Of a DNA stretch of 64,000 bases, positions 31,205-46,966 are shown piece after piece (positions within the stretch are counted from its first letter, which is position 1; every line of letters starts with the position of its first letter). Both the position numbers and the translations under genes were made by a program. Below the pieces are notes generated by a model. That model worked only from the letters and a program-made list of their open reading frames with translations, did not search any database and was not told the DNA's origin. This DNA comes from Allobosea sp. AAP35 (lineage in GTDB: Bacteria > Pseudomonadota > Alphaproteobacteria > Rhizobiales > Beijerinckiaceae), in NCBI RefSeq assembly GCF_001295925.1, contig NZ_LJHQ01000003.1, forward strand, positions 248,001-312,000, written 5' to 3'.

Positions 31205-32085
31205 GCCGCCAGCCCCGGAATGATCAGCGGCAGGCGGGGGCGTAAGTGGACGAAATCCTCCTCGTCCTTGATCGCGGCGCCCAGCGAGCGGCGGAACGCC
31301 TCCGGCCAGGGCGCGCCGGCCTGGGCGAGCGCGGTCGCGGCCTCCGCCCAGTCGACGGCTTCCGCCACGCCCGGCGGCTTGGCCAGCGGCTCCTGCCGCA
31401 AAAGCCCGATGGCGTGGACGACGGCGCGCGCCGTGCCCTCGGCTACGGCGGATGAGCGCAGCATGATGATCTGGGCCTCCCGCTCTGGCTCGGGATAGGC
31501 GATGTAATGGTAGACGCAGCGGCGGCGCAGCGCCTCGTGCAGCTCGCGGGTGCGGTTGGAGGTCAGGACCACGACCGGTCGCTCGGCCGCGCGCAAGGTC
31601 CCGCGCTCGGGGATCGAGATCGAGAAATCGGAGAGGAATTCGAGCAGGAAGGCCTCGAATTCATGGTCCGATCGATCGATTTCGTCGATCAGCAGCACGG
31701 TGGATTCCGGCCGGCGCAGCGCCGTCAGCATCGGCCGCTCGATCAGGAAATCGTCGCGGTAGATGTCGAGCGCCTCGCCCTCCCGCGCCTGGCGGATCGC
31801 CAGCATCTGGCGCGGATAGTTCCACTCATAGAGCGCGGCAGAGGCGTCGATTCCCTCAAAGCATTGCAGGCGGATGAGCTGGCGCCCAAGGATGCCGGCG
31901 ATGGCCTTGGCGGCCTCGGTCTTGCCGACGCCGGGCGCGCCTTCGAGCAGCAGCGGTTTGCCGAGCGCGAGCGAAAGATAGCCGGCGGTGGCGATGCCGT
32001 CATCGGCGAGATACATCGCCCCCGTCAGGGCCTGGGCCAAGTCCTCGGGGCTGGATATGCCGGCGACGGTGGTCCTCAGCGCCAT
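31201..32085 (-). CDS. CoxD/MoxR-family AAA+ ATPase
   Basis: 294 residues. Walker A GAPGVGKTE at 49-57, Walker B with LLIDEIDRSDHEFEAFLLEFL, and sensor-type VVLTSNRTRELHEALRRRCVYHY. This is the MoxR-type chaperone ATPase paired with a VWA protein, as in CO dehydrogenase and related molybdenum hydroxylases. It lies four bases after the large-subunit C-terminal gene and overlaps the CoxE-like gene by four. Confidence 0.88.
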   Translation of the reverse strand: MALRTTVAGISSPEDLAQALTGAMYLADDGIATAGYLSLALGKPLLLEGAPGVGKTEAAKAIAGILGRQLIRLQCFEGIDASAALYEWNYPRQMLAIRQAREGEALDIYRDDFLIERPMLTALRRPESTVLLIDEIDRSDHEFEAFLLEFLSDFSISIPERGTLRAAERPVVVLTSNRTRELHEALRRRCVYHYIAYPEPEREAQIIMLRSSAVAEGTARAVVHAIGLLRQEPLAKPPGVAEAVDWAEAATALAQAGAPWPEAFRRSLGAAIKDEEDFVHLRPRLPLIIPGLAA

Positions 32086-32089
32086 GCCG

Positions 32090-33133
32090 TCACCGCCAGT
32101 TCACGGGGCCGCCGCGCCGCGGGCCGGGCTTGACCCCGCCATTGGCCTTCAGGCCGCGCAGGATCTTTTCGGGCGTGATCGGCAGTTCGTCGACGCGCAC
32201 GCCGACCGCATTGTAGACCGCGTTGGCGATCGCCGGCAGGACGGGATTGGCGCACATCTCGCCGGGCCCCTTGCCGCCGAACGGCCCGTCCGGCGCCGGG
32301 CGCTCCAGCACCGTGACGTGATAGGGCGCGATCTCGCCCGGGCCCGGCATCAGATATTCGTTGAAGTCGCGCGGGCCGTGCGCCGGGTCCGGATAATAGG
32401 GCTCGGGTGTCTCAAACAGCGCGTGGCTCATGCCCATCCAGGCGCCGCCGACAAGCTGCTGCTCGACCATGCGCGGATTGATGACGCGGCCGAGTTCATA
32501 GGCGCTGGTCATCCTGAGCACTTCGACCTCGCCGGTCTCGTCATCGACGGCGACGTCCGCCACCAGGCAGGCATGGGCGAAGGCGGTGTTGGGGTTCATC
32601 TCGCCGGTCTCGGCATCGACCGCCGAGAGCGGGATCAGGAAGATGCCGCGGCCGGCGATGGTCTTGCCCTGCTTGAACTGCGCCGCCTGGGCGGTCGCCT
32701 TGACCGTGATCGAGCGGGATGGCGCGCCGCGAACATGGATGTTGCCGCGCCCGTCGGTGACGAGGTCGCCGGCATCGACCTCCAGTTCCTCGGCCGCGGC
32801 CTCGAGCAGCACGCCGCGGGCCTCGCGCGCCGCGACGATGATGGCATTGCCCATGCGATGCGTGCCGCGCGAGGCAAAGGAGCCCATGTCATGGGGGCCG
32901 GTGTCGCTGTCGGCGGTGTCGACATAGACGTCCTCGACCGGCACGCCGAGCGTTTCCGCCGCGATCTGCCGCGAGACCTGCTTCATGCCCTGGCCGAGAT
33001 CGATCGCCGAGAGCGCGACGGTGAACTTGCCGTCGGGGTTGGAATGGATCAGCGCCTGGCTCGGATCGCCGCCGAGATTCATCCCGATCGGATAATTGAC
33101 GGACGCCATGCCGCGACCTTGGTGACGGGCCAT
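32090..33133 (-). CDS. Molybdenum hydroxylase large subunit, C-terminal half
   Basis: 347 residues, equivalent to the second half of an XDH-family molybdopterin-binding subunit. It starts at MARHQGRGMASVNYPIGMNL. Cofactor-binding segments are DLGQGMKQVSRQ and MGSFASRGTHRMGN. The catalytic glutamate lies in GGKGPGEMCANP near the C-terminus. The preceding gene, which supplies the first half, ends at 33135: its TGA is followed by one base and then this ATG, so translation is surely coupled. Normally both halves form one chain of about 780 residues. Both must associate to give an active site. Confidence 0.85.
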   Translation of the reverse strand: MARHQGRGMASVNYPIGMNLGGDPSQALIHSNPDGKFTVALSAIDLGQGMKQVSRQIAAETLGVPVEDVYVDTADSDTGPHDMGSFASRGTHRMGNAIIVAAREARGVLLEAAAEELEVDAGDLVTDGRGNIHVRGAPSRSITVKATAQAAQFKQGKTIAGRGIFLIPLSAVDAETGEMNPNTAFAHACLVADVAVDDETGEVEVLRMTSAYELGRVINPRMVEQQLVGGAWMGMSHALFETPEPYYPDPAHGPRDFNEYLMPGPGEIAPYHVTVLERPAPDGPFGGKGPGEMCANPVLPAIANAVYNAVGVRVDELPITPEKILRGLKANGGVKPGPRRGGPVNWR

Positions 33134-33134
33134 G

Positions 33135-34892
33135 TCAGCGCCTCCTGCCGAAGACGGATGAAAAGCGCACCGCGCCATGCTGGGTCTGGGTGGCCGGCGC
33201 CGGAGCGGGCGAGGGCGGCGCTGGGGGCGGTTGGTAGGGCGGGGGCTGGCGGCCCGCCACCGGCTGGTACGGCGAGGGCGGCGGGGCATAGGCCGCAGGT
33301 GCCAGCGGCTGCGTCGCTGTCCGGGCCGGTTCGTAGCGCGGCACCTGGGTCGGCGCGGCGCGGCCGTCTCGCGCGCCCTCCATCACCGGCTGCTTGCTCG
33401 GCGCGATGCGCGAGGTGCCGGCCGGCAGGGTTTGCGTCGGGCCCGATTGACGCGTGTCGGGCCGGCCGATCTGGCCGCGTGCATCGAGCACGGTGGCGGG
33501 AATCTGCGCGCGCTCGCCGGCGCCGCCGCCGGTGAGAGAGGATTGCCGCTTGCCCTGTTCCGAGATCGGCCAGTTCGCCTTCCCGGCCGCGACCTGGACG
33601 CATTCGATCAACGCCGTGTTCGAGGCCTTGCGCCGATGCGGCTTCATGTCGCCGTCGCGATAGGCGTTGAGGATCCGGAACTCCATCGGGTCCATGCCGG
33701 CGGCCTCGGCGAGCCGGTCCATCTGGACCTCCAGCGCGAAATCCACCGCCGTGATGCCGAAGCCGCGCATGGCGGTGGAGGGGCAGCGGTTGGTGTAGGC
33801 GACATGGACGTCGGAGGAGACGTTGGGGATCCAGTAGGGCCCTGGCAGATGCGCCGTGCATTTGATCGCGGCATAGCTGGAGAGCCGCGTATAAGCGCCG
33901 GCGTCGAAATAGCTGCGGATCTGGCGGGCAACGATGCGCCCGTCGCGCATCAGCCCATCCTTGATGTAGATGCGCTCGGCCCCGCGCGGCGAGCCGTAGA
34001 GCATCTCCTCCTCGCGATCGAGCACGAAGCGGACCGGGCGCCCCGTCACCATCGCGCCCAGCACCGCCAGCGGTTCGGTCAAGGAATCGACCTTGCCGCC
34101 GAAGCCGCCACCGACCGTGCCGCCGATGAAATGCAGCCGGTTGGACTCGACCGCGACGATCTTGGCCGCGGTCCCAAGCGCGAAGAACAGGCCCTGCGCG
34201 CAGGAATGCACCACGAAGCGGCCGTTCTGCTCGGGCGCGGCGATCGAACCATTGGTTTCGGTCGGCGCATGCTCGATCGGCGACATCTGGTAGCGGTGCT
34301 CCAGCACCATGTCGGCCGAGGCGAAGGCGCGCTCGACATCGCCGAAGCGCAGCTTCTGATGGTCGAAACGCTCGTGATACTCGAAATAGTTTGCCGGATA
34401 GGTTTCGTTGACGACAGGCGCGCCGGGCTTCAGCGCCTCCTCGACGTCGAAGACGGCGGGCATCGGCTCATAGTCGATCCGCACCAGTTTCTTGGCCGCG
34501 AGTGCCTGCGCCTCGGTTTCGGCGATGATCGCGACGACCGGCTCGCCCTTGTAGTGGACCTGGTCGACCGCCAGCGAGGGCTCGTCGTCCTTGCCGAAAT
34601 TGATCAGGCTGAGCAGCGTGTTCTTGTTCACCGGCACGTCGGCGGCGCGCAGCACGCGCTTCACGCCCGGTGCGCGCGCCGCCGCCGCGATATCGATCGA
34701 GCGGATGCGGGCGCTGGCATGGGGACTGCGCACCACCTTGAGATGCAGCATCCCGTCGAAGGCATGGTCGTCGAAATAGCGCGTCAGCCCGGTGACATGG
34801 CCGGGCATGTCCTGACGCTGGATGCCCTTGCCGATGACGTTGAGATTGTCGTCGCGCTCGTCGGCGAAGAGGTCCTTGCGGAGTTCTAGCAT
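33135..34892 (-). CDS. Molybdenum hydroxylase large subunit, N-terminal half with proline-rich tail
   Basis: 585 residues. Residues 1-448 match the first half of XDH-family molybdopterin subunits: GKGIQRQDMPGHVTG at the start, the molybdopterin loop GGTVGGGFGGKVDS (257-270), and AYTNRCPSTAMRGFG (365-379). The last loop lacks the AYRCSFR cysteine motif of true CO dehydrogenase, so the substrate is not CO. From about residue 449 the sequence changes to a low-complexity Pro/Gln/Ala tail of about 137 residues (PPPSPYQPVAG, PPYQPPPAPP) ending in FGRRR. The tail sits exactly where the protein would continue into the next gene. Confidence 0.85.
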   Translation of the reverse strand: MLELRKDLFADERDDNLNVIGKGIQRQDMPGHVTGLTRYFDDHAFDGMLHLKVVRSPHASARIRSIDIAAAARAPGVKRVLRAADVPVNKNTLLSLINFGKDDEPSLAVDQVHYKGEPVVAIIAETEAQALAAKKLVRIDYEPMPAVFDVEEALKPGAPVVNETYPANYFEYHERFDHQKLRFGDVERAFASADMVLEHRYQMSPIEHAPTETNGSIAAPEQNGRFVVHSCAQGLFFALGTAAKIVAVESNRLHFIGGTVGGGFGGKVDSLTEPLAVLGAMVTGRPVRFVLDREEEMLYGSPRGAERIYIKDGLMRDGRIVARQIRSYFDAGAYTRLSSYAAIKCTAHLPGPYWIPNVSSDVHVAYTNRCPSTAMRGFGITAVDFALEVQMDRLAEAAGMDPMEFRILNAYRDGDMKPHRRKASNTALIECVQVAAGKANWPISEQGKRQSSLTGGGAGERAQIPATVLDARGQIGRPDTRQSGPTQTLPAGTSRIAPSKQPVMEGARDGRAAPTQVPRYEPARTATQPLAPAAYAPPPSPYQPVAGRQPPPYQPPPAPPSPAPAPATQTQHGAVRFSSVFGRRR

Positions 34893-34903
34893 GTCGGCCT
34901 CCC

Positions 34904-35386
34904 TCAGGCGCGGCGCAGGCCGGGCGAACCGGCTGCGGCGAGGATCGCCGCGACGATCGGCTCGTAGCCGGTGCAGCGGCAGATATTGCCGCTGATCGCC
35001 TCGATCACCTCGTCGCGGGTGGGGTTGGGGTTCCGGTCGAGCAGCGCGCGTGCCGCCGTCAGCATGCCCGGCGTGCAGAAGCCGCACTGCGCCGCGAAAT
35101 GCTCCATGAACTGGGCCTGCAGCGGGTGCAGTTCGGGTCCATCAGCCATCCCGGACGCCGTCTCGACCTGCCGGCCCTCGCAGGCGACCGAGAGCGTCAG
35201 GCAGGACAGATGCGGCTCGCCGTCGATCAGCACGGTGCAGACGCCACATGCCCCCTGGCCGCAGCCATATTTCGGCGCGAAATCGCCGAGGCTCCGCCGC
35301 AGCGTGTTGAGCAGGGTCTCGGGCGCATCGACGAAGGCGGCGCGGTCGGTGCCGTTGAGGCGGAACTGGACGGGGATCTTGGCCAT
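34904..35386 (-). CDS. Molybdenum hydroxylase small [2Fe-2S] subunit (CoxS-like)
   Basis: 160 residues with two iron-sulfur clusters. The N-terminal plant-type ferredoxin motif is YGCGQGACGVCTV plus a fourth cysteine in LSCLTL. The C-terminal helical domain has CGFCTPGM and CRCTGYEPI. It passes electrons from the molybdenum site to the FAD subunit. It lies between the FAD and large-subunit genes in the usual M-S-L order. Confidence 0.95.
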   Translation of the reverse strand: MAKIPVQFRLNGTDRAAFVDAPETLLNTLRRSLGDFAPKYGCGQGACGVCTVLIDGEPHLSCLTLSVACEGRQVETASGMADGPELHPLQAQFMEHFAAQCGFCTPGMLTAARALLDRNPNPTRDEVIEAISGNICRCTGYEPIVAAILAAAGSPGLRRA

Positions 35387-35396
35387 GGCGCGCTCC

Positions 35397-36218
35397 TCAG
35401 CGGGGCTCGCCGGCGAGCAGCCGGCCGAGATGAACGGGCAGCACCTCGCGGCGATACCATTCGCTCGCGATCGCGTCGGTGGCAGGGCGGCAGCCTTCCA
35501 GCGCGCCCGTCTTCGCGGCGGCGATCGCGGCGGCATCCAGGCTCTTGCCCTCCAGCGCCCGTTCGACGCCGCGCGCGCGGATCGGCGTCGGCGCCATCGC
35601 GCCATAGGCGACCCGCGCTTGGGCGACGCGCCCGCCGGCCAGCGGCAGATGCGCGGCGATCGACAGGACCGAGATGCCCTTGGGCTTCACCCGGCTGATC
35701 TTGCGGAAGTGGAAGTCCCCCGGATTGGCCGGCCGCGAGAACTGCACGGATGTGACCAGCGCCGATCCCGAGCGCTCGCGCGCGGCCAGGAACTCCTCCA
35801 GCGGCGTCGCCCGGCCGGAGCCGAAACCCGCCTGTAGGACAACCTGCGCGTCGAGGGCCAGCAACGCGACCGTGAAATCGCCATAAGGCGCGGGAGCGAA
35901 CAGGTTGCCTCCGACGGAGGCCATATTGCGCACGGCCGGTCCGCCGATGGCGCGCGCCGCAGGATGCAGGAAGGCAAGCTCCCGGTTCGCCAGGATCATC
36001 CCCATGGTCACGCCCGCGCCGAGTTCGATGCGTCCGCCGCCGGCCTCGATCCGCCGGAAGGCGGGATCGGTGACGCGAAGCAGCGTGCCCTCCGTCAGGC
36101 GGCCTTCGTTGACATCGCGCATGACCAGCGTGCCGCCGCCGATCAGCACCGCCTGCCGGTCGCCCGACAGGATGCCGGCGGCCTCCGAAAGGGTCGTGCA
36201 GCTTCTCACATCGAGCAT
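35397..36218 (-). CDS. Molybdenum hydroxylase FAD-binding medium subunit (CoxM-like)
   Basis: 273 residues. FAD-binding stretches are LIGGGTLVMRD (shortened from the AGGQSL type), IGGPAVRNMASVGGNL and PYGDFTVALLALDA, with a C-terminal CoxM domain ending HLGRLLAGEPR. It accepts electrons from the iron-sulfur subunit. One base separates it from the upstream SRPBCC gene. Confidence 0.9.
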   Translation of the reverse strand: MLDVRSCTTLSEAAGILSGDRQAVLIGGGTLVMRDVNEGRLTEGTLLRVTDPAFRRIEAGGGRIELGAGVTMGMILANRELAFLHPAARAIGGPAVRNMASVGGNLFAPAPYGDFTVALLALDAQVVLQAGFGSGRATPLEEFLAARERSGSALVTSVQFSRPANPGDFHFRKISRVKPKGISVLSIAAHLPLAGGRVAQARVAYGAMAPTPIRARGVERALEGKSLDAAAIAAAKTGALEGCRPATDAIASEWYRREVLPVHLGRLLAGEPR

Positions 36219-36219
36219 G

Positions 36220-36672
36220 TCAGACGGCCTCCCTCGCCAGTTCGGGCAGGCGGCGCACCGCCTCGATGCCGTTGGTGTAGACCTCGTCGCCGACGATGCG
36301 GGCGAGCTCGGCTTCCCGGCCGGGCGGCGTGGTGAAGCGGCTTTCCCAGTGCCAGAAGGCGCGGTTGCCGTCGGTCACCGGCAAAAGCCGGACATGGGCG
36401 ACGTAGTTGAACAGCGGGATCGGCGTATCGAGCAGGCAGTAGCTGAAGGTCATTTCGAGATCCGAAAGCGTGAGGAGCTGCTCGCGCAATTCGCTGCCGT
36501 CCTGCAGCCAGAAGCGGCGCACGCAGCCGATCTTGTCGGACGGGTGCCCGCGCTCGATCTCGCTGCGGGCGACGATCGGGTGCCAGCGGTCATGGCCGTT
36601 GAAGTCGCGCAGCACCGACCAGAGCAGGTCGACCGGCGCGTCGATGATCGTGCTGCGGACGACATGGGGCAT
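36220..36672 (-). CDS. SRPBCC family protein (copy 2)
   Basis: 150 residues, one START-like helix-grip domain of the polyketide-cyclase type. It is clearly related to the next upstream gene (shared DFNG..WHP, REQLL.LSD and NYVA..RL.P.TD). Such proteins hold hydrophobic ligands. In CO dehydrogenase clusters a protein of the same fold, CoxG, links the enzyme to the membrane quinone pool. A similar job is possible here but unproven. Confidence 0.8.
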   Translation of the reverse strand: MPHVVRSTIIDAPVDLLWSVLRDFNGHDRWHPIVARSEIERGHPSDKIGCVRRFWLQDGSELREQLLTLSDLEMTFSYCLLDTPIPLFNYVAHVRLLPVTDGNRAFWHWESRFTTPPGREAELARIVGDEVYTNGIEAVRRLPELAREAV

Positions 36673-36676
36673 GGTC

Positions 36677-37114
36677 TCATCCCCCGAATGCGCGCTTGAG
36701 CGCGTCGAAGCCGCCCTGGAAGACATTGGTGCCGATGCCCTCGATCAGCTCCGCCTCGCGTTCGGGCGCGCAGTCGAATTCGGCCGACCACTCGATGAAG
36801 GTCCGCTCCTGGTCGGTGATCGGCGTCAGCCTCAGCGTCGCGACATAGTTCGTCAGCGGCATCGGCGAGTCGAGGATCGCGTAGGTGCAGAACATGTCGT
36901 AGTCCGAGAGGCCGAGCAGCTGCTCGCGCAGGCGATCGCCGCTGCGCAGCGAGAAGGCACGGATGCAGCCGACCTTGTCGGCCGGTTCGCCATTCTCGAT
37001 CCGGCTTTCGGCGATGCGAGGGTGCCAGTTCGGCAGGCCGTTGAAATCCCGCACGCGGGCCCAGACCTTGGCGGCGGGGGCGGAGATGACGCTGGAAACG
37101 TAGACGCGGGCCAT
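36677..37114 (-). CDS. SRPBCC family protein (copy 1)
   Basis: 145 residues, same fold and about half identical to copy 2 by eye, so the pair is a tandem duplication. Marks: MARVYVSSVISAPAAKVW, RDFNGLPNWHPRIAESRIENG, VGCIRAF. ATG 37114 lies 12 bases after the flotillin gene stop; copy 2 begins four bases beyond its own stop. Function inferred only from the fold and neighbours. Confidence 0.8.
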   Translation of the reverse strand: MARVYVSSVISAPAAKVWARVRDFNGLPNWHPRIAESRIENGEPADKVGCIRAFSLRSGDRLREQLLGLSDYDMFCTYAILDSPMPLTNYVATLRLTPITDQERTFIEWSAEFDCAPEREAELIEGIGTNVFQGGFDALKRAFGG

Positions 37115-37126
37115 GATGCTTCAGCC

Positions 37127-40057
37127 TCAGGAGGTCTTGCCGGGGCCGGCTTTGGGCGCTCTGCCCCCGCCGCCCGACTTGGGATCGCCGCCGCTCTGAC
37201 CGTCGCTCTTCGTCTCGCCGCCATCCTTCGGTTTGGCCGGCTGCGCATCCTTGGCGACGCGCTGCATGTCGGAGGCCTCGCGCATCAGCCCGCCCATCTT
37301 GGCGAGGTTGCCGCCCTCGATGCCGATCTCCTTCAGCACCTGGTCGATCATCGGCGCCTGGACGCGGTAGCGCAGCGCCGATTCGATGACCTCATCGGTC
37401 GGCGAGCGCGCCGCCCCGCCTGCGCCGCCCGAACCGCCGCCACCGGCGAGGCCGTCGACATGCAGGATGCGGATGCCCTCGATCTTCTCCATCGGCTTGA
37501 CGCTCTCGCGCACGATGCCCTCGATCTTGTCGAGCAGGCGGCGACGGAAGAGCCCGTAGCGGGAGCCGTCGGTGAGCACGTTCTCGGCCTCGTAGAGCAG
37601 CTTCTGCGCATCGGCCTCGACGGTGCGGCGAATCTTGTCGGCCGCCGCGGCGATGTTGGATTCCTCGGCCGCCTTCTCGGCCAGCAGCACCTCGACGGTC
37701 TTGCGCCGCCGCGCGCCCTCGCTCTCGCGCACCGTCTTGACGTTTTCCTCGGCCTCGACCGCCTTGGCGCGGGCGATCTCGGCATTGGCCTGGGCGGCGG
37801 ATTCCTCGAGCGACTTGGTGTAGAGCGCGATCGCCTTGTCCATGGCGGCGGCCTCGACATCGCGCTCCCTAGCGATCTCCAGCTTGCGCAGCTCGCGCTG
37901 GCGCCCGACACGGGCCTCGTCGAGCCCCCGATCCGACGAGATGCGGGCGCGCTCGACCTCCTCGTTGGAGGCGATCTGCGCCTCCTGCAGCGCCTGGGTG
38001 CGGGCGATCTCGAGCTGTTCCAGCGCGCGGCGGCGTTCGATCCGCGTGGTCTCCAGCGCCTGCTCGCGGACGATATCGACGGTCTCGACCTGCTGCCTGG
38101 CGGTGATCTCTGCCTGGCGCAGCGCGCTGTCGGCATCCGTACGCTCGACCTTCTTGGCGGCGAGCACGATCGCGCGGTCTTCCTCCGCAACCTCGACCGC
38201 CTTCTTCTGGGCGATCTGCAGCATTTCGCGCGATTTCGCCGCGTCGATGCGCTCCTCGTCCAGCTTGAGTTCGGTGGCGATGCGCTGACGCTCGACGGTA
38301 TCACGACGCTTCAGCTCGGCTGTGTCGAGATCGGCGTTGCGGCGGATCTCCAGCTCCTTGGTCGAGAGCTCGGCGGCGATCCGCTCGGCTGCGACGACCT
38401 TCTCCTGCGCGATGCGTGCGGCTTCCGTGGCCTCGCGGGCCGCGATCTCGGCGGTGTCGATCGCCTGGTTGCGGGCAATTTCGAGATTGCGGATGTCCTC
38501 GTCGCGGCGGATGCGCTCACTGGCGACGATGCGCTCCTGGCTGATGCGCGCCTTCTCCACGGTCTCACGCGCCGAAATCTCGGCCGCCTCGATCGTCTCG
38601 CTCTGCTCGATCTCCAGCAGGCGCTTGCGCTGCTCCAGCGCGATGCGGTCGGCCGTCAGCACGTTCTCTTGGGCGATCCGGGCCTTCTCGACCGCCTCGC
38701 GAGCGGCGATCTCGGCCTCGTCCAGCGCACGGTTGCGGGCGATGCCGAGCGCGCGGACGCGCTCCTCCTGGCCGATGCGGGCGGTATCGACCGCTTCGCG
38801 CGCCGCGATATCCTCCTGGTCGAGCACGCGGGTGCGCTCGATCTCGCGATTGCGGATCTCCTGCTCGCGGATGATGCGCTCGGCGCTGATCGCGCTCTCC
38901 TGCAGGATGCGCGCTTTCTCCGTGGCTTCACGAGCCGCGATCTCGGCGGCTTCCAGCGTCTGCGCGCGCTCGATCTCCTTCTGCCGTATGTCGCGCTCGG
39001 AGGCGATGCGGGCTGCGCTGATCGCCTGTTCATTGGCGATGCGGGCCTTCTCGATCAGTTCGCGGGAGGCGATCTCGGCCTCCTCGACGGCCTGCGTCCT
39101 CGCAATCTCCTGCTGGCGGATGTCGCGGTCGGACGCGATGCGCGCCTCGCTGATCGCGCGCTCATTGGAGATGCGCGACTTCTCGATCTCCTCGCGGGAG
39201 AGGATCTGCGCCTGCTCGGCCTCGGTGTCGCGGGCGGCGCGCTCGCGGGCGACCTCGGCGCGCTGGACGGCGCGCTTGATCTCGATTTCGCGTTGCTGTT
39301 CGAGGCGGGCCGCCTCGCTGTCGCGCTCGATGTCGAGCGCCTGGCGCTCGGCCTCGAGGTTGCGGGTGCGGATGCGGATCATCGAATCCTGCTCGATGTC
39401 GTTGCGCAGCTTCCGCTTGTCTTCGATCTCCTCGATGATCCGCGTCAGACCGGCGGCGTCGAAGCGGTTGGACGGGTTGAAATACTGAAGATCGGTCTGG
39501 TCGAGATCGGTCAGCGCCACCGATTCGAGCAAGAGCCCGTTCTGGTCGAGCGCCTCGGCGGCAGCCTCCTTGACGCGCTGGACGTACATTCCGCGCTGCT
39601 CATGCATCTCCTCCATCGTCATCTCGGAGGCGACGGTGCGAAGCGCCGAGATGAACTTGCCGGACAGGAGGGCATGAAGCTGGTCGGGTTGGAGCGTGCG
39701 CCGGCCCAGCGTCGCGGCGGCGACGGACACCGAGTCCCGCTCCGGCTTCACCCGGACATAGAACTCGGCGTCGATGTCGACGCGCATCCGGTCGCGGGTG
39801 ATCAGCGCGTCGTTGTTGGCCCGCGTCACCGCGAGCTGCAGCACGTTCATGTTGACGGGCGTGACGTCGTGGATGATCGGCAGCACGAAGGCGCCACCAT
39901 TGATCACCACCTGTTCGCCGAACAGGCCGGTGCGGACGAAGGAGACCTCCTTCGACGAGCGCCGATACAGCCAGTTCACCAGATAGACGATGATGGCGAT
40001 GACGATCACCGCCACGATCAGCCAGAGGATCAGCGATCCGATCAGCTGTCCCGTCAT
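37127..40057 (-). CDS. Flotillin-like SPFH protein with giant hendecad coiled coil
   Basis: 976 residues, far longer than usual bacterial flotillins (about 500-700). Residues 4-28 form one membrane anchor (LIGSLILWLIVAVIVIAIIVYLV). An SPFH domain follows (about 35-200; TGLFGEQVVINGGAFVLP, VDIDAEFYVRV). Residues 284-727 are a charged rod with Ile/Leu/Val every 11 residues. Residues 800-865 are flotillin C-terminal-like, followed by a Gly-rich segment (871-881), an alpha-helical patch and a disordered Lys/Gly tail. SPFH proteins build membrane scaffolds and microdomains. Its place between a TIM-barrel gene and the Mo-hydroxylase genes suggests it organises that enzyme or the uptake system at the membrane. 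This is inference. Confidence 0.85.
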   Translation of the reverse strand: MTGQLIGSLILWLIVAVIVIAIIVYLVNWLYRRSSKEVSFVRTGLFGEQVVINGGAFVLPIIHDVTPVNMNVLQLAVTRANNDALITRDRMRVDIDAEFYVRVKPERDSVSVAAATLGRRTLQPDQLHALLSGKFISALRTVASEMTMEEMHEQRGMYVQRVKEAAAEALDQNGLLLESVALTDLDQTDLQYFNPSNRFDAAGLTRIIEEIEDKRKLRNDIEQDSMIRIRTRNLEAERQALDIERDSEAARLEQQREIEIKRAVQRAEVARERAARDTEAEQAQILSREEIEKSRISNERAISEARIASDRDIRQQEIARTQAVEEAEIASRELIEKARIANEQAISAARIASERDIRQKEIERAQTLEAAEIAAREATEKARILQESAISAERIIREQEIRNREIERTRVLDQEDIAAREAVDTARIGQEERVRALGIARNRALDEAEIAAREAVEKARIAQENVLTADRIALEQRKRLLEIEQSETIEAAEISARETVEKARISQERIVASERIRRDEDIRNLEIARNQAIDTAEIAAREATEAARIAQEKVVAAERIAAELSTKELEIRRNADLDTAELKRRDTVERQRIATELKLDEERIDAAKSREMLQIAQKKAVEVAEEDRAIVLAAKKVERTDADSALRQAEITARQQVETVDIVREQALETTRIERRRALEQLEIARTQALQEAQIASNEEVERARISSDRGLDEARVGRQRELRKLEIARERDVEAAAMDKAIALYTKSLEESAAQANAEIARAKAVEAEENVKTVRESEGARRRKTVEVLLAEKAAEESNIAAAADKIRRTVEADAQKLLYEAENVLTDGSRYGLFRRRLLDKIEGIVRESVKPMEKIEGIRILHVDGLAGGGGSGGAGGAARSPTDEVIESALRYRVQAPMIDQVLKEIGIEGGNLAKMGGLMREASDMQRVAKDAQPAKPKDGGETKSDGQSGGDPKSGGGGRAPKAGPGKTS
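37879..39208 (-). repeat. DNA encoding the 11-residue repeat rod of the flotillin-like protein
   Basis: The segment EIAAREAxEKARI occurs at residues 328, 372, 416, 449, 493 and 537, spaced 44, 44, 33, 44 and 44 residues, which is 132 or 99 bases in the DNA. The unit is four (or three) hendecads. This indicates growth by internal duplication and deletion in multiples of 33 bases. Confidence 0.8.
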
Positions 40058-40085: not shown

Positions 40086-40961
40086 TCATTTCGCTTTGCC
40101 CGCCTTGCCGGCGGGCTTCTTGACTGTGAGATCGCGCCCGATGCGCTTGAAGGCGCGGGTCTGTTCGCGGATCGCGACCTCGACCGGCAGCCGTTCCATC
40201 GAGGAAGCGCCGTAGAAGCCGTGGCAGTGCTTGGTGTTTTTCATGATGAAATCGGCGTCCGCCGGCTCGGCGACCGGCCCGCCATGGACGAGGATCAGCG
40301 CGTCCTTCTTCACCGCGAGCGCGGCGGCTGCCCATGCATCGACCAGCGCCGGGCAGTCGGCGAGCTTGAGCGCGGTCTCGGCGCCGATCGCTCCCCCCGT
40401 CGTCAGGCCGAGATGGCAGACGATGATGTCGGCGCCGGCCTGCGCCATGGCCCGCGCATCGTCCTCGCAGAAGACGTAAGGCGTCGTCAGCAGGCCCTTG
40501 GCGTTGGCGAGCCTGATCATCTCGACCTCGAGGCCGTAGCCCATGCCGGTCTCTTCGAGATTCTTGCGGAAGACGCCGTCGATCAGCCCGACGGTCGGGA
40601 AATTCTGCACCCCCGCGAAGCCGATGCGCGCGACCTCGTCGAGGAAGACATCCATCCGCCGGAACGGATCGGTGCCGCAGACGCCGGCGACGACCGGCGT
40701 GGTCTTCACCACCGGCAGCACTTCGGCCGCCATCTCCATGACGATCGCATTAGCGTCGCCATAGGGCATGAGCCCTGAGAGCGAGCCGCGCCCGGCCATG
40801 CGGTAGCGGCCGGAATTGTAGATCACGATGAGGTCGATGCCGCCGGCCTCCTCGCATTTGGCCGACAGCCCCGTGCCGGCGCCGCCGCCGACGATTGGCT
40901 CTCCGGCTTTCACCATCGCCCGGAAGCGCTTCAGCAGGCTCTTCTTGTCGAAGCTCACCAT
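40086..40961 (-). CDS. Phosphoenolpyruvate-hydrolase-family TIM-barrel protein
   Basis: 291 residues. The family signature [39 protein letters not shown]... is unmistakable, followed by [12 protein letters not shown] and [18 protein letters not shown]. The family is named for predicted PEP hydrolase activity, but its reaction is not established. It is typically encoded beside a Tm-1-like (UPF0261) protein, as here. ATG 40961 is chosen because AGGAG lies four bases upstream and the length before the glycine motif fits homologues; an ATG at 40973 overlapping the upstream stop is the alternative. Confidence 0.85.
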
Positions 40962-40969
40962 CTTGCTCC

Positions 40970-43210
40970 TCATGCCTTCGCCCGCTCGCGTCGGCGCCCG
41001 GCATGCAGCGGGCGGAACTGCTGCACGAGGGCGGCGGCGAAGGCCGGGTCGTTGATGTGATGCGCGTAGCGGATCAGCTGCCGGGTCGGCGTCTGGCGCA
41101 CGGTCTGTTCCAGCGCCTGGAACAGCGCGGCGTCCGCTACGGGATCGTGGAAGGGCTGGCCGGGCGCATCGAGCGCCGAGACGCCCTTCTCGGGCAGAAG
41201 GAAGCGCACCGGCCCCTCCATCAGGTTCAGCCGCTCGCCGATCCAGCGCCCCATCCGCGCATTCTCGTCAGGCGTGGTGCGCATCAGCGTGATCTGCGGA
41301 TTGTGCGGGTAAAGGTTGCGGCCGCGATAGCGCTCGGGAACGGTCTCGGGGGCAAAGAAATTGACCATGTCGAGCGCGCCGACCGAGCCGACATAGGGAA
41401 TGCGGGTGCGGATGATCGCCCCAAACCGGTCCTCGGTCGCGGGCAGGAAGCCGCCCATCATCATGTCGCAGATTTCGGTGGTGGAGACGTCGATGACGGC
41501 GCCGACCAGCCCGGAATCGACCAGCTTCTCCAGTGCCCGCCCGCCCGTGCCCGTGGCGTGGAAGACCAGCGGCTCCCACTCGGCCTCCAACAGCTTACCG
41601 ACCTGCTGCACGCAGGGCGTCGTCACGCCGAACATGGTCAGCCCGACAAGCGGCTTCTCAGGCTCGCCGCGCCGCGTCGTCGCCGGTCTGGTCAAGTCGG
41701 CCAGCCGCGACTTGGCCATGGCGGCCATCGCCCGCGCGCCATTGCCGAGCACCAGGCGCGAGACGCGGTTCAGCCCCTGCACATCGGTGACGGCATGCAT
41801 CATGGTGATGTCGGCGGCGCCGACATAAGCCCCGACATCGCCCGAGGCCATGGTGGAGATCATCAGCTTCGGCAGGCCGATGGGCAGGTCCTGCATCGCC
41901 GGCGTCACCATCGCGGTCGCGCCCGAGCCGCCGGCCGAGATCACGCCGAGAACGCCCTGCTGGCGCGGCAGCCAGGCCTTGAAGGCTTGCGTCATCGCCG
42001 CGACCGCAGCGCCGCGGTCGCCCGATGCGATGCCGGCCGAGCCGCGCGGATGGGCGAGCGCGATCTCCTGGGGGGGGACGTCGCCGCCAGCGCTGCGGCC
42101 CGAGGTCGAGATGTCGACGAGCCGCGCCCGCACCCCTTCCGCCTGCACGAGATCGCGGATGAATCGCAGCTCGTCGCCCTTGGTGTCGAGCGTGCCGACG
42201 ACGATGACATGCGGCTCGCCGCTGGCCGAGGGCGCCTGGCGCCGGCCATCCGCGACGGCCCGGCCGTCGAGCGTCGCCAGGGTCGGCCGCGAGATGGTGC
42301 GCGCCTGCGCCTCGATGCGCGCTGCCGGCACCGGCTGCGACCAGCGCGTCGGGATCACCGGATTGGCGTTGTAGACCCGCAGCGGCCCGGTCGGCGGGGA
42401 GGGCGCGCGAGCCGCCCCGCTCTCGGGAGCCTGAGCCTCGCTTTGCGCCCCATCCGTTTCGTCATGGCCGTGACGGCCGACGCCGAGCAGGCGTTGCTGG
42501 AGTTCACGATCACCCGCCAGCGTCGCCGAGGCGATGATGCGGTTGACCCGGCCATTGACCATGATGGCGACGGGGTCCGACATCTCGGTGGCGACGCCGA
42601 TATTCTGTTCGATCACGAGGATGGCGACGTCGCCCTGATCGGCGAGGCGCACCAGCATCTCCTCGACATGGGCGACGATGACCGGCGCGAGCCCCTCAGT
42701 CGGCTCGTCCATGATCAGGAGGCGTGGATTCATCAGCAGCGCGCGGCTGATCGCCAGCATCTGCTGCTCGCCGCCGGACAATTGGGCGCCGCCATTGTTG
42801 CGGCGCTCGGCGAGCCGCGGGAAAGCCTCGTAGATCCGCTCCGGCGTCCAGGCCCCGCGCTTGCCGCGCTGCATCAGGCGCAGGTGTTCGTCGACCGTCA
42901 GCGAACGCCAGAGCCGACGGCCCTGCGGGACATAGCCGATGCCGAGCCGCGCGATCTCGGCGGGGCTGCGGCCGGCGATCTCCTCGCCGAAGAAGCGGAT
43001 CGAGCCGGAGCTGATCGGCACCAGCCCCATGATCGCCTTGCACATGGTCGTCTTGCCCATGCCGTTGCGGCCGACGACCGAGAGCACGCCGCTCTGCAGC
43101 GTGAGATCGACGCCCTGCACCGCATGGGAGCGGCCGTAGAAAACGTTGAGACCCGCGATCTGCAGGATCGGCACGCCGACGCCTGGAGGAGCCTTGAGGC
43201 GTTCAGCCAT
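40970..43210 (-). CDS. LivF-type ABC ATPase fused to Tm-1-like (UPF0261) domain
   Basis: 746 residues. Residues 12-245 are a branched-chain amino-acid-type ATPase: Walker [10 protein letters not shown] (48-56), signature LSGGEQQ (144-150), Walker B LLIMDEP (164-170), and LVIEQNI. A linker rich in Ala/Pro/Gln follows (250-330). Residues 333-746 form a full UPF0261/Tm-1-like protein beginning [17 protein letters not shown], with [23 protein letters not shown] and [13 protein letters not shown]-like [16 protein letters not shown] 43210 has GGAGG five bases upstream. It overlaps livG by eight bases. The fusion ties the uncharacterised domain to an importer. The role of the second domain is unknown; plant Tm-1 binds ATP. 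Confidence 0.88.
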
Positions 43211-44006
43211 GACCACCTCCGACATGACCGCCTCCCAGGTAGAGTTCCTGGACCTCGGGGTCGGTTTCGATCTCCTCGGGCGCGCCTTCCTTGAAGATTC
43301 GGCCATTGTGCATCATCGTCACGCTTTCGACGACGCGCAGCGCCACATCCATGTCGTGCTCGATGATGATGTAGCCGATATGGCTCGGCAGCGAGGTCAG
43401 GATATGGACGAGGTCGCGCCGTTCCGTCGGCGACAGCCCCGCCGCCGGCTCGTCGAACAGGATGAAGCGCGGCGCTCCTGACAGAGCCAGCGCGATCTCG
43501 AGCTGGCGCTGCTGGCCATAGGCGAGCTCGCCGACCAGTCTGTCCTTGACGGGACCAAGGTGCACGGCCTCCACCAGCGTCTCGGCGGCATGGACCAGCG
43601 CATCGTCGCGGCGTGGCCGCAGCATCGAGAAGCGGTTCCGCGAGACGCCCCGGCAGGCCAGATAGACATTGTCGAGCACCGACAGCCCGACGAAGAGCGA
43701 GGAGATCTGGTAGGTCCGGCGCAGGCCGCGCCGGATGCGCTCCTGCGGCGGGAAGGCAGTGACATCCTCGCCGAAGAAGCGGATGACGCCGGAGCTCGGC
43801 GCGAAATCACCTGTGATGCAGTTGAAGAGCGTGGTCTTGCCGGCGCCGTTGGAGCCGAGCACGGCGCGCCTTTCGCCGGGCCTCACCGAGAGTGTGATAT
43901 CGGTCAGCGCCGCTAGCGCTCCGAACAGCCGCGAGACCCCGCGCAGTTCGAGCGCATTGGCCGAGCCCGCCGCCGTCAGCCGTTCGCGTGTGGCGATCGC
44001 GCTCAT
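43203..44006 (-). CDS. livG: LIV-type ABC transporter ATPase
   Basis: 267 residues. Walker A GSNGAGKTT, signature LAYGQQRQLEIALAL (a LivG-type variant of LSGGQ), Walker B FILFDEPAAGL, and IIIEHDMD. The second ATPase of the importer, partner of the LivF half in the next gene. ATG 44006 overlaps the livM stop by four bases. Confidence 0.93.
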   Translation of the reverse strand: MSAIATRERLTAAGSANALELRGVSRLFGALAALTDITLSVRPGERRAVLGSNGAGKTTLFNCITGDFAPSSGVIRFFGEDVTAFPPQERIRRGLRRTYQISSLFVGLSVLDNVYLACRGVSRNRFSMLRPRRDDALVHAAETLVEAVHLGPVKDRLVGELAYGQQRQLEIALALSGAPRFILFDEPAAGLSPTERRDLVHILTSLPSHIGYIIIEHDMDVALRVVESVTMMHNGRIFKEGAPEEIETDPEVQELYLGGGHVGGGHG

Positions 44007-45088
44007 GGCGTGCCTCCGCCGGATCCCATCTGGCTGTCGCGGATATCGCCGCTGCGGCGATAGCGGTCGCGCAGCCGCTGCCAGATGCCGATCAGCCCGT
44101 CGGGCGAGAACAGCACGATGACGAGGAAGCCCAGCCCGATCAGCAACTGGTAGCGCCGCCCGTCGAGACCGACACCCTCCAGCACATCGAGCGAGAAGGT
44201 GCGCAGCAGCACATAGACCAGCGCGCCGATGAAGGGGCCGATGGGGCGGCTCAGGCCGCCGACCACCGCGATGATCAGCATGTCGACGACCGGGCCGACC
44301 CCGGCCGTGCCGGGCGAGATCTGGCGCTGATACCAGACCAGCAGCACGCCCGCTGAGGCCGCGATCAGCGAGGCGAAGGTATAGGCCGCGATGCGGTGCG
44401 CCACGACGTCGAAGCCCAGCGCGGCCATGCGGCGGGGATTGTCGCGCGTACCCTGCAAGGCGAGCCCGAAAGGCGCCCGTGAGACATAGACCACGGCGCC
44501 ATAAGCCAGCGCCGCGCAGGCGAGCGTCAGGTAGTAGAAGGGCACCTGCTGGCCCCAGTCGATGCCGAGGAAAACCGGCGGCAGGATGCCGTTGAAGCCG
44601 CTGAAGCCGTTGAAGATCGTGTAGTTCTGCAATGTCAGGTAGTAGAACGCCGAGGCGATCGCGAGCGTGATCATGATCGTGTAGATGCCCTCGGTGCGCA
44701 CCGAAAGCGCGCCGCTCAGCGTGCCGAACAGCGTCGCGACCAGGATCGCGACCGGCGCGGCCAGCCACCACGGCCAGTGCAGGCTGATCTGCGAGATCGC
44801 GCTGTCGCCCAGGATCGCGACGAGGTAGCCGGCAAACCCCGCCACCGTCATCTGGACCAGGCTGACGATGCCGCCATAGCCGGCCAGGAACATCAGGCTC
44901 AGTGCGATCAGGCCAAGGATCATGGAATAGGCAATGATCTGGACCAGCCAGAACGGGCTCGCGATCGCCGGCATGAGAAGCAGCAATCCAGCGACGACCC
45001 AGAACGCCGTGCCACGGCGCGCCACCCAGTCGCTGAAGCTCTCGCGAGGGCGGGCTTGCTGTGCCAGGTTGAGGTCCGCGACCGCCAT
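44003..45088 (-). CDS. livM: LIV-type ABC transporter permease (LivM)
   Basis: 361 residues with about ten hydrophobic segments. GYGGIVSLVQMTVAGFAGYLVA and ALQGTRDNPRRMAALGFDV are the LivM substrate-gate and ATPase-coupling (EAA-like) regions. Two bases separate it from livH. Confidence 0.92.
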   Translation of the reverse strand: MAVADLNLAQQARPRESFSDWVARRGTAFWVVAGLLLLMPAIASPFWLVQIIAYSMILGLIALSLMFLAGYGGIVSLVQMTVAGFAGYLVAILGDSAISQISLHWPWWLAAPVAILVATLFGTLSGALSVRTEGIYTIMITLAIASAFYYLTLQNYTIFNGFSGFNGILPPVFLGIDWGQQVPFYYLTLACAALAYGAVVYVSRAPFGLALQGTRDNPRRMAALGFDVVAHRIAAYTFASLIAASAGVLLVWYQRQISPGTAGVGPVVDMLIIAVVGGLSRPIGPFIGALVYVLLRTFSLDVLEGVGLDGRRYQLLIGLGFLVIVLFSPDGLIGIWQRLRDRYRRSGDIRDSQMGSGGGTP

Positions 45089-45090
45089 CG

Positions 45091-46101
45091 TTAGCGCCTT
45101 GCCGCCAGGCCTTCGGGCCGCACTGCCAGGACCGCGACCATGATGATGAAGGTCAGCATCACGGCATAGGTCGGCATGTAGACGGAGCCGAATTGCTCGG
45201 CGAGCCCGACGATGAGCGCGCCGACGGCGGCTCCCGGAATCGAGCCCATCCCGCCGACGATGACGACCACGAGCGAGGACAACAGGATGCGGGTGTCCTC
45301 GCCCGGCTGCAGCGACTGGAAGGTGCCGCCGACGACGCCGGCCAAGCCCGCCAGCCCCGCCCCGAAGGCGAACACCATCACGAAGACGAGCTGCACCCGC
45401 ACGCCGGTCGCCGACAGCATGTCGCGATCATCGACGCCCGCCCGCACCAGCATGCCGACCCGCGTGCGGTTGAGCGCGAGCCACATCAGCACGCCGAGGA
45501 TGATCGCGCCGACCAGAATGGCGATGCGCACCAGCGGATAGGTCATCATGACCGCCTCGCCATTGCTGCGCAGCGCGACCGCGAAGGGCAGCGTGACCGG
45601 ACCCGAGAGCCAGTCGGGCGCCGTGACCTGGAAGGTGTCGCCGCCATAATTCCACAGCAGCAGGTCGGCGAAGATGATCGAGAGGCCGATGGTGACCAGC
45701 GTCTGCCGCAGGTCCTGGCCCTCCATCCAGCGAAACAGCAGCACCTGCATCAGGACGCCGACGAGCGCCACGACCAGAAAGGCGACTACGAGCGCCACCA
45801 GCCAGGAGCCGCTCCATTCGCCGATGCTGTAGCCGAGGTAGCCGCCGAACAGATACAGCGAGCCATGCGCCAGATTGACGTTGCGCATCAGCCCGAAGAT
45901 CAGCGTGAAGCCGCTGGCGACGAGGAAATACAGCGCGCCCAGCGTGATGCCGTTGAACAGCGCGCTCAGGAACACGCGCTTGCGGCCGAACATCGCCTCC
46001 ATTCCCGGCGTCCAGATCGAAAAGACGAGCCAGACCAGGATCGCGACGGCGAGGATGATGATGAGCGACCAGATCGGCCGGCGGGCGATGACATCAGACA
46101 T
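45091..46101 (-). CDS. livH: LIV-type ABC transporter permease (LivH)
   Basis: 336 residues, about eight membrane helices. GLMRNVNLAHGSLYLFGGYLGY and RAGVDDRDMLSATGV mark LivH. First permease gene after the AraC gene, with which it overlaps by eight bases (46094-46101). Confidence 0.92.
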   Translation of the reverse strand: MSDVIARRPIWSLIIILAVAILVWLVFSIWTPGMEAMFGRKRVFLSALFNGITLGALYFLVASGFTLIFGLMRNVNLAHGSLYLFGGYLGYSIGEWSGSWLVALVVAFLVVALVGVLMQVLLFRWMEGQDLRQTLVTIGLSIIFADLLLWNYGGDTFQVTAPDWLSGPVTLPFAVALRSNGEAVMMTYPLVRIAILVGAIILGVLMWLALNRTRVGMLVRAGVDDRDMLSATGVRVQLVFVMVFAFGAGLAGLAGVVGGTFQSLQPGEDTRILLSSLVVVIVGGMGSIPGAAVGALIVGLAEQFGSVYMPTYAVMLTFIIMVAVLAVRPEGLAARR

Positions 46102-46966
46102 GGCAGGCCCGCAGCGCTGTCGGAGATTGCAGCGGCAATTGGCCGACGCGGCGCAGGACCCGGCGATAATCGCGCGGCGCCATGCCCATATGCGCGGTGA
46201 AGAAGCGGGTGAAGACGCTCTGGCAGGAGAAGCCGAGCGCATTGCTGATCCCCGTCACCGGGTCGCTCGACAGGACCAGCCGGTCGAGCGCGGCATCGAG
46301 GCGCACGGTGTTGGCGAAGACGGTCGGGGTGACGCCGACCTGCTCGCGGAACAGCTTGAAGAAATGCGCGCGCGACAGGCCGGCCTCGCGAGCGACGCGC
46401 TCGAGCGCACCCTCATGGGCCGGGTGAGCCTCGATCAGGCGCCGCGCCCGCGCCACGCGCCGGTCGAGTGCGCTTTCGGGCGCGACATGGATCAGTGCGG
46501 AGGCGAGTTCCTGGCCGATCGGCTCGCTCGAGGCCTGGGCCAGCGCCATCAGCACCGGGGCGGGATTGAGTTCGCGGTGCGCTGACAGCAACATCTCGAC
46601 CACCTCGTCGCGCCATGACGCGAGTTCGCGCGTGATCACCAGTTCGGAGGCCGGGAAGGCCAGCGAGCCGGGCGGCGTCATGGTCTGCGTCGCCAACCAT
46701 TCGGGCTTGAGATAGACGACGAGGAAGAGGCCGAGTGCGCCTGCACGCTCCGGTACGAAGTTGTGCGGCTCCCAGGGGTTGATCGCCACCCCCATGAAGG
46801 GATCGACGAGCGTGGTGCGGCCGTTGATGGTGACGAGCCCGCGCGAGCCTTCGAGGAAGAAGATCAGATGCGCCTCGCGATGGGCATGCAGCACCAGCGG
46901 TCGGTCGAGATCGTAAATCGCAACCCGGCCGAAGGGACCGTGGCAGACCGCAACTGCGCGACTCAT
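46094..46966 (-). CDS. AraC-family transcriptional regulator
   Basis: 290 residues. N-terminal cupin sensor (LVLHAHREAHLIFFLEGSRG...WEPHNFVPE) and C-terminal double helix-turn-helix (VAREAGLSRAHFFKLFREQVGVTP, then ISNALGFSCQSVFTRFFTAHMGMAPRDYRR). Probably activates the 20-kb operon whose first gene it is, in response to the imported compound. ATG 46966; no recognised conserved sequence precedes it. Confidence 0.9.
   Translation of the reverse strand: MSRAVAVCHGPFGRVAIYDLDRPLVLHAHREAHLIFFLEGSRGLVTINGRTTLVDPFMGVAINPWEPHNFVPERAGALGLFLVVYLKPEWLATQTMTPPGSLAFPASELVITRELASWRDEVVEMLLSAHRELNPAPVLMALAQASSEPIGQELASALIHVAPESALDRRVARARRLIEAHPAHEGALERVAREAGLSRAHFFKLFREQVGVTPTVFANTVRLDAALDRLVLSSDPVTGISNALGFSCQSVFTRFFTAHMGMAPRDYRRVLRRVGQLPLQSPTALRACHV

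Follow-up and report, generated by a model that had tools for sequence, protein, structure and literature searches.

The flotillin gene and its operon

The window, a 64,000-nucleotide stretch from Allobosea sp. AAP35, contains an operon for an ABC importer, Tm-1-like proteins, a flotillin (P0001), SRPBCC proteins, a molybdenum hydroxylase, CoxD, and CoxE. The features are given below by position in the window and strand.

29211..30095 (-) amidohydrolase; Amidohydro_2
30092..31204 (-) CoxE-like VWA protein; VWA_CoxE 2.7e-49
31201..32085 (-) CoxD-like AAA+ ATPase; AAA, AAA_5
32090..33289 (-) Mo-binding subunit, second half; MoCoBD_2
33135..35087 (-) Mo-binding subunit, first half, start uncertain; MoCoBD_1, Ald_Xan_dh_C
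34904..35605 (-) 2Fe-2S subunit, start codon uncertain; Fer2_2, Fer2
35397..36218 (-) FAD subunit of the molybdenum hydroxylase; FAD_binding_5, CO_deh_flav_C
36220..36726 (-) SRPBCC protein 2; Polyketide_cyc2 1.6e-18
36677..37114 (-) SRPBCC protein 1; Polyketide_cyc2 3.1e-28
37127..40057 (-) flotillin P0001, ORF of 976 aa; Band_7 8.6e-18, Flot 4.5e-33 (Pfam)
37319..37681 (-) Flotillin C-terminal domain of P0001, residues 793-913 (Pfam)
37847..38134 (-) hendecad block 2 of P0001, residues 642-737 (register model)
38135..38182 (-) joint of P0001, residues 626-641, register shift +3 (register model; low-confidence break at 623-643 in the structural model)
38183..39217 (-) hendecad block 1 of P0001, residues 281-625 (register model, spectrum)
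38873..39218 (-) 132-bp DNA repeats, the best preserved 44-residue superunits of P0001 (Tandem Repeats Finder)
39476..39934 (-) SPFH/Band_7 domain of P0001, residues 42-194 (Pfam)
39959..40051 (-) N-terminal hydrophobic helix of P0001, residues 3-33, followed by Arg-Arg (sequence; helix in the structural model)
40086..40973 (-) PEP_hydrolase-like (Tm-1 type barrel) protein; PF09370 5.8e-129
40970..43306 (-) ABC ATPase fused to UPF0261 (Tm-1-like); ABC_tran, UPF0261, UPF0261_C
43203..44771 (-) importer ABC ATPase; ABC_tran
44003..46242 (-) two ABC permeases; BPD_transp_2 twice
46094..47095 (-) AraC-type regulator; HTH_18
47131..48378 (-) importer periplasmic binding protein; Peripla_BP_6 1.3e-58

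P0001 is a flotillin by its domain content, carrying both defining domains, an SPFH/Band 7 domain (PF01145; 65.4 bits against a cut-off of 23.6) and a C-terminal Flotillin domain (PF15975; 114.4 bits against a cut-off of 27); its score for the FloT equivalog NF058507 (NCBIfam) was 36.5 bits, below the curated cut-off of 700. Between the two domains lie approximately 620 mostly helical residues free of proline, in agreement with the very long helical wall that the earlier note proposed for a flotillin-type protein; we refer to the helix at residues 205-827 (623 residues) as the wall. The N-terminal helix is probably a membrane anchor that leaves the remainder of the protein cytoplasmic. The AlphaFold2 monomer was weak (mean pLDDT 62.8), with breaks at 409-439 and 623-643, and its closest fold in the PDB was flotillin 9bq2 (E 1.6e-10), with a low TM over the query of 0.15. 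A profile search of the PDB aligned the SPFH part with flotillins and a stomatin and gave a weak match to a designed protein. The sole PDB sequence match along the rod, a leucine-rich-repeat protein, was judged to be a repeat artefact.

Hendecad periodicity of the wall

P0001 is a hendecad protein by its 11-residue periodicity. Residues 285, 296 and so on to 615 (31 positions in steps of 11) comprise 30 Ile and one Leu (582), and are followed on the ladder by Glu626 and Val637. The 33-position ladder described by the earlier note at residues 284-636 is thus real, with 626 as its only deviating position rather than 625-626. Its resumption after a shift, placed at 661-727, was recovered at 662-728, where all seven positions are Ile or Val at phase +3. 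The recurrence at 11 residues stands, but the description as a single ladder does not, since each hendecad has aliphatic residues at two positions, 5 and 10.

The spectrum of I/L/M/V/F over residues 284-636 had peaks at 5.49, 2.75, and 2.20 residues (11/2, 11/4, and 11/5), with powers of 47.8, 38.3, and 21.2 against shuffle maxima averaging 6.5 and reaching 11.3 (200 shuffles). The same spectrum contained no heptad signal (power 0.41 at 7 and 0.17 at 3.5 residues), ruling out a heptad coil and bearing out the preference for hendecads over heptads. Growth by internal duplication of 44-residue superunits was likewise corroborated by the 132-bp repeats and by amino-acid identity, which was 49% at a lag of 44, 26% at a lag of 11, and 10% in the background. 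The superunit bears an Arg-Arg-Glu-Glu ladder, and one superunit (419-451) has 33 residues instead of 44.

Wall length among relatives and conservation of the operon

Wall length relative to P0001 ranged from -253 to +297 residues in 127 relatives with lengths of 700 aa or more (L016, L169, L011, L097, and L098 left out), which are not independent, some genomes being counted twice. The 35 distinct length differences fell into 24 at 0 mod 11, 8 at 8 mod 11, and 3 others. All 102 relatives in the 0-mod-11 class kept the +3 joint, whereas it was missing from every one of the 22 in the 8-mod-11 class, which fall 3 residues below a multiple; L082 (3 mod 11) had two +3-type joints, and the 11-residue register rule was violated in L094 (-78) and L138 (-39). 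Landmark measurements gave 44 proteins at 0, 11 at 8, and 9 at other values (one of them the frameshifted L016) among the 64 with both landmarks in a first set, and 61, 14, and 2 (L138 and the fragment L169) among the 77 of a second set, in which 3 further proteins had no C-terminal landmark. On a tree built without the wall (identical SPFH parts dropped, 120 rows; changes counted on 110 rows), at least 42 length changes were required, compared with 4 changes mod 11, 26 mod 44, 35 mod 7, 35 mod 10, and 37 mod 12. These data demonstrated that the wall grew and shrank many times in related bacteria, nearly always in 11-residue steps; its length is not fixed, and its 11-residue register nearly is.

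Steps of 11 could also arise from in-register repeat recombination only, with the register kept without selection. In-register crossovers automatically yield multiples of 11, and the 132-bp repeats, with 60% DNA identity at a 132-bp lag, speak for such a process, yet at least 26 of the 42 changes shift the 44-residue phase even though DNA identity is no more than 43% at a lag of 33 bp (background 33%). As the +3 joint also persists through length change, we regard recombination as the whole explanation as rather doubtful, while giving it more weight than the other alternatives below.

At one operon position, orthologs had total lengths of 536 to 1259 aa and walls that, reckoned by adding the length differences to helix 205-827, span roughly 235 to 920 residues. 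Short YqiK-like relatives did not follow the 11-residue length rule, but a few hendecads were found in the short relatives L089 and L177, in keeping with expansion from a hendecad seed. The earlier note had counted orthologs lacking the repeat while keeping function as evidence against its reading; the ortholog comparison revealed such a case in part, L177 (536 aa) having few hendecads but retaining the core of the operon. All seven operon loci with orthologs of 536-744 aa (L177, L178, and L184-L188) lacked a FAD, 2Fe-2S, or Mo match within 18-19 kb, one of the two comparisons covering matches over 200 bases and 35% identity; the same held for L189 (857 aa), which lies in a short contig. On the wall-free tree, six of these seven loci group in a single clade, with L177 by itself on a long branch; the pairing of short walls with missing molybdenum genes therefore amounts to one or two evolutionary events and is not statistical proof.

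Gene order in the operon was held across many genera. The ABC-UPF0261 fusion was kept at 76 of 80 loci, PEP_hydrolase at 77, SRPBCC at 74, FAD at 72, CoxD at 66, and CoxE at 63, and all 17 loci without some core gene were shorter than the full stretch. The flotillin could instead be a general microdomain organiser whose place in the operon is that of a passenger without functional link. Consistent with this, L093 and L094 (729 and 876 aa; loci L181 and L180) stand outside the operon, and in genome G136 the flotillin-SRPBCC-Mo part lies approximately 170 kb from the ABC-Tm-1 part. In G136, however, the flotillin remains beside the SRPBCC and Mo genes, and a P0001-like match was found in 36 of 37 sampled genomes bearing a near-full-length ABC-UPF0261 fusion; together with the conserved order, these observations make a passenger role improbable. 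L093 and L094, along with the short-walled L177 and its operon core, show that neither long wall nor operon strictly needs the other. The NfeD family was absent from the Pfam matches of the window genes scanned, and the locus is thus unlike the SPFH2/NfeD operon type, which has an NfeD-type partner gene adjoining the flotillin according to the sections of the source considered (PMC2636767). The operon seems to import and oxidise a compound.

Packing of the wall and comparison with known systems

Three helical turns take up eleven residues, and every side chain therefore comes back to the same angle from one unit to the next. The aliphatics of the P0001 wall form two stripes 131 degrees apart, with Ile at position 10, and Ile, Val, or Leu at position 5 with Ala beside it; a long charged stripe at positions 9, 2, and 6 runs between them. 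Their two-face moment was 0.106 (highest of 500 shuffles, 0.057), and their one-face moment of 0.034 gave no signal (shuffle maximum 0.053). On the Eisenberg scale, to which Ala and charges also contribute, one-face and two-face moments were both present, the former being 0.182 in P0001 against a shuffle maximum of 0.185 and exceeding the maximum in L078 and L162. The straight or slightly right-handed hendecad coiled coil envisaged earlier was not recovered in its classical single-seam form: the aliphatic moment is two-faced, to which the Eisenberg scale adds a one-face component. Two such stripes would suit helices standing side by side in a cage wall.

Hendecads also occur in small coiled coils, and the repeat might be a single charged helix or a dimeric to tetrameric rod that serves as a membrane spacer rather than a cage wall. 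Its 42% charged residues, its lack of proline, and the one-face Eisenberg component fit such a rod; the separation of the aliphatic stripes, the missing one-face aliphatic moment, and the flanking SPFH and Flotillin domains, an arrangement shared with known cages, make it unlikely. A lipid-binding 11/3 amphipathic helix coating the membrane, as in perilipins and synuclein, would share the 11-residue repeats, an Ala-rich side, and, in three of four proteins, a one-face Eisenberg moment that approaches or exceeds the shuffle maximum, but is very improbable given the negative mean hydrophobicity of the walls (-0.31 to -0.38), aliphatics that are not one-faced, and the charged stripe between them.

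A charge zipper setting the helix stagger was considered and dropped. When 30 chosen walls were modelled electrostatically as helix pairs, 28 favoured a stagger of 13-14 residues, and each of the 30 reached a lower minimum than its own 12 shuffles of hendecad order, although the margin was minute in a few. Under a tighter control, in which charges were shuffled position by position inside the 44-residue unit, 52-82% of 300 draws equalled or surpassed the real walls across four parameter sets, and for this reason the charge ladder is not claimed to set the stagger.

Taken together, we favour, with somewhat better than even confidence, a reading of P0001 as a register-locked, length-tolerant flotillin cage serving its operon. 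A hendecad seed would have been amplified from a wall helix of approximately 230 residues in short relatives to approximately 620 in P0001, and the two aliphatic stripes with Ala would allow numerous identical helices to pack laterally into a closed palisade. Selection, rather than mutation bias, would permit changes in wall length and forbid changes in register. The cage would sit at the inner membrane on its cytoplasmic side, and its most likely role would be that of a scaffold gathering the importer and membrane-linked oxidation by the molybdenum hydroxylase, with the SRPBCC and CoxD/E proteins as helpers. The conserved operon also provides a concrete candidate client for a bacterial flotillin, in the form of the importer together with the molybdenum hydroxylase and its membrane-linking SRPBCC proteins.

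This family would bear on what determines the size and contents of SPFH cages. In the sections available of a study relating wall length (x) to subunit number, n = 0.1782 x + 10.22, and further structures are said to be needed to see whether the relation holds (PMC12624060). The natural series of 536 to 1259 aa, with register held and length varied, would allow a direct test. At 623 residues, more than 3-fold beyond the data, the relation gives approximately 121 subunits and near 13 MDa, and for the longest relative, L165 (approximately 920 residues), an extrapolated 174 or so. A P0001 cage of approximately 13 MDa would be vault-like in mass. It is conceivable, albeit improbable, that a scalable membrane nanocompartment takes its size from the length of the wall, and that the wall grew when the molybdenum hydroxylase and AAA+/VWA helpers joined the operon, enclosing them; if so, this would be a bacterial membrane-bound metabolic cage tuned in size in 11-residue steps.

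In the open-access literature, we found no paper joining flotillin with hendecad, none pairing any two of UPF0261, Tm-1-like ATP-binding, phosphoenolpyruvate hydrolase, and flotillin, and, among the titles and abstracts found, none on a P0001-type wall or operon. CO oxidation is not claimed for this operon; true CO dehydrogenase has a copper-binding active-site loop. CoxG is an SRPBCC protein, and the SRPBCC genes here are placed like the CoxG link of the cox cluster. With coxMSLDEFG, as described in the portions used of PMC4240915, the operon shares FAD, 2Fe-2S, and Mo subunits and CoxD-like and CoxE-like proteins, to which it adds the ABC importer, Tm-1-like proteins, and flotillin. Unlike in the cox cluster, the Mo subunit is split into two genes in 66 of 66 loci.

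E. coli YqiK and short bacterial flotillins resemble P0001 in domain order, N-terminal helix, and recognisable homology, whereas YqiK has 553 aa, only 3 weak hendecads (borderline signal, 2.9 against a shuffle maximum of 2.7), and a neighbouring yqiJ (NfeD-type). Major vault protein, a fold match at rank 30, is also an SPFH-family cage, but it is soluble and its wall is made up of repeat domains, not of a single long helix. The human flotillin-1/2 cage (9bq2, 9l3g) shares with P0001 the SPFH domain, the C-terminal cap region, and a long, heptad-free wall helix; in the sections of PMC11260169 considered, 44 helices build its wall as a single-layer, right-handed barrel, and no hendecad ladder such as that of P0001 is reported. 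The human protein is a lipid-anchored heteromer, in contrast to the P0001 gene with its N-terminal hydrophobic helix. Because the 186-residue human wall, a 28 nm helix, sits in a cage 22 nm high (PMC11260169, same sections), height is not readable from contour length, such as the earlier figure of roughly 65 nm for a rod of about 440 residues. At about 620 residues, the P0001 wall has about three times the length of the walls in the solved cages used for comparison.

Domain architecture and the hendecad wall

The flotillin under study (P0001) contains a long, mostly helical segment, the wall, between the following two domains.

37127-40057 (minus strand): flotillin gene P0001, 976 residues
N-terminus of P0001 (minus strand): hydrophobic helix
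P0001 residues 42-194: Band 7/SPFH domain
P0001 residues 793-913: Flotillin domain

Close named relatives from Bosea and Aquabacter showed 86-89% identity, and the window therefore probably originates from Bosea or a close relative. Residues 205-828 contained no proline and five glycines, and 42% of the wall residues were charged. A weak AlphaFold2 monomer model (mean pLDDT 62.8) presented three long helices between the domains (205-408, 440-622, and 644-827). The first break contained Gly429, Gly438, and the sole short superunit (normally 44 residues, or four 11-residue hendecads), and the second coincided with a phase shift; the model may have placed them at genuine joints, or they may be artefactual. 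Antisense to the gene lies an open frame of 1217 codons (36470-40123, plus strand), which seems to result from the composition of the repeats, because the opposite strand of relatives also gave weak matches.

An earlier note had described an unbroken 11-residue ladder and interpreted it as a rod that would make an unusually tall membrane cage or fence, grown by internal duplication. The ladder was confirmed and proved deeper than stated: Ile, replaced once by Leu, occupied 31/31 steps at residues 285, 296 ... 615, and Ile or Val all seven steps of the ladder restarted after a +3 shift (662 ... 728). The wall spectrum showed peaks at 11/2, 11/4, and 11/5, and none at the heptad values of 7 or 3.5. 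The observation stands, and the interpretation only in part. Within residues 287-616, hendecad position 10 was aliphatic in 30/30 repeats and position 5 in 25/30, the two being separated by 131 degrees on an 11/3 wheel; Ala was common at positions 11, 8, and 4, and position 9 was charged in 28/30. The aliphatic two-face moment exceeded all 500 shuffles, whereas the one-face moment did not rise above them. On the Eisenberg scale, a one-face component was also seen (P0001 near the shuffle maximum, its relatives L078 and L162 above it), and one side of the wall helix is accordingly more polar as well. In the solved flotillin wall, 44 helices lacking heptads are described as forming a right-handed barrel one layer thick (PMC11260169). 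Two contact stripes would suit a similar palisade, in which every helix touches two neighbors, and we infer that the P0001 wall is built in this way.

At the superunit level, the wall showed 49% identity at lag 44, and its DNA carries 132-bp repeats. In most long relatives inspected, position 9 read Arg-Arg-Glu-Glu across four consecutive hendecads, such units containing 2680 of 4404 hendecads (Lys counted as Arg and Asp as Glu). This constant feature was absent from the earlier note; tests for a role in stagger did not establish one.

Wall length and register among relatives

With query residues 220 and 800 as fixed landmarks, wall lengths were measured in 127 relatives that were 700 aa or longer. 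Differences from P0001 spanned -253 to +297 residues and took 35 distinct values, comprising 24 multiples of 11, eight equal to 8 mod 11, and three that were neither. The +3 joint (P0001 residues 626-641) was found in 102/102 multiples-of-11 proteins and 0/22 of the 8-mod-11 proteins; its presence or absence accounts for the latter class. L082 (3 mod 11) contained two such joints; L094 and L138 did not fit this register model. The longest uninterrupted register extended over 685 residues (L078, 248-932).

On a tree built from the SPFH part only (110 rows of the main clade scored), parsimony required at least 42 length changes versus 4 changes of length mod 11, and 26 mod 44, 35 mod 7, 35 mod 10, and 37 mod 12. 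Approximately nine in ten length changes preserved the 11-residue register, and most broke the 44-residue frame. Some part in these changes must be played by recombination between repeats. Wall DNA identity was 60% at a 132-bp lag but just 43% at 33 bp against a background of 33%, and we therefore favor selection on the 11-residue register as the probable explanation.

The short relatives L089 and L177 each carry a few hendecads, a plausible seed for the long wall; the signal in Escherichia coli YqiK was borderline. The gene of L016 (genome G028) is broken into an ORF of 870 codons and another of 282; the frameshift is either genuine or an error of sequencing. In the SPFH tree, L115, titled Frankia sp. 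RB7, grouped among Bradyrhizobium and may therefore be mislabeled.

Genomic context and possible function

The P0001 gene belongs to a one-strand cluster, presented below from its upstream side.

Table. Cluster genes and their occurrence in the best 80 named loci among the matches listed
Periplasmic binding protein: 37 (often past the flank examined)
AraC regulator: 66
Two ABC permeases: 70 and 71
ABC ATPase
ABC ATPase-UPF0261 (Tm-1-like) fusion, 40970-43306 (minus strand): 76
PEP_hydrolase-like protein, next to the fusion: 77
Flotillin P0001
Two SRPBCC proteins: 74 (two copies in 72)
FAD subunit: 72
2Fe-2S subunit: 71
Mo-binding large subunit, split into MoCoBD_1 and MoCoBD_2 ORFs, 32090-35087 (minus strand): 70 and 66
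CoxD-like AAA+: 66
CoxE-like VWA: 63
Amidohydrolase: 60
Metallo-beta-lactamase fold: 39

The Mo subunit was encoded by two ORFs in 66/66 of these loci with matches to both halves, and all 17 loci lacking a core gene ended early at contig ends. A single ORF at 26717-28336 (minus strand), combining an SMP-30/gluconolactonase-like region with an isochorismatase domain, was matched in one of the 80 loci. Upstream of the operon, 49170-51941 encodes a flavocytochrome c sulfide dehydrogenase-like protein and a SoxA/TsdA-type cytochrome.

In the order sample of 199 genomes, 36 of the 37 with a near-full-length ABC-UPF0261 fusion had a P0001-like match (1e-60 or better), the exception (G150) being 71% complete. 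The cluster of G136 lies in two halves approximately 170 kb apart, no PEP_hydrolase match was seen in G193, and L093 and L094 are located outside the operon. We found no paper in the open-access literature linking the ABC-UPF0261/PEP_hydrolase-like pair with flotillin.

Operon orthologs of 733-744 aa retain the importer, ABC-UPF0261, flotillin, and SRPBCC genes, as well as PEP_hydrolase in 5/6 (not adjoining L186), with no Mo genes nearby. In both such loci examined, a single fusion protein combines the second SRPBCC with a zinc-type alcohol dehydrogenase (L178, 7330-8841; L184, 11789-13294), and therefore the pairing of an oxidoreductase with an SRPBCC protein recurs. In O. carboxidovorans, CoxG was proposed to carry CO dehydrogenase to the membrane, with electrons passing to quinone (PMC4240915). 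As an unproven function, we prefer a flotillin platform for such membrane-linked oxidation.

Comparison with known flotillins

The helix contour of P0001 is approximately 93 nm (623 x 0.15). Because human flotillin fits a 28 nm wall into a 22 nm cage (PMC11260169), plain scaling would give a putative P0001 cage of roughly 50-75 nm, with approximately 121 subunits per ring if the dependence of subunit number on wall length published in PMC12624060 holds. Judged by both defining domains, P0001 is a flotillin, and it departs from known flotillins in wall length, hendecad construction, and operon.
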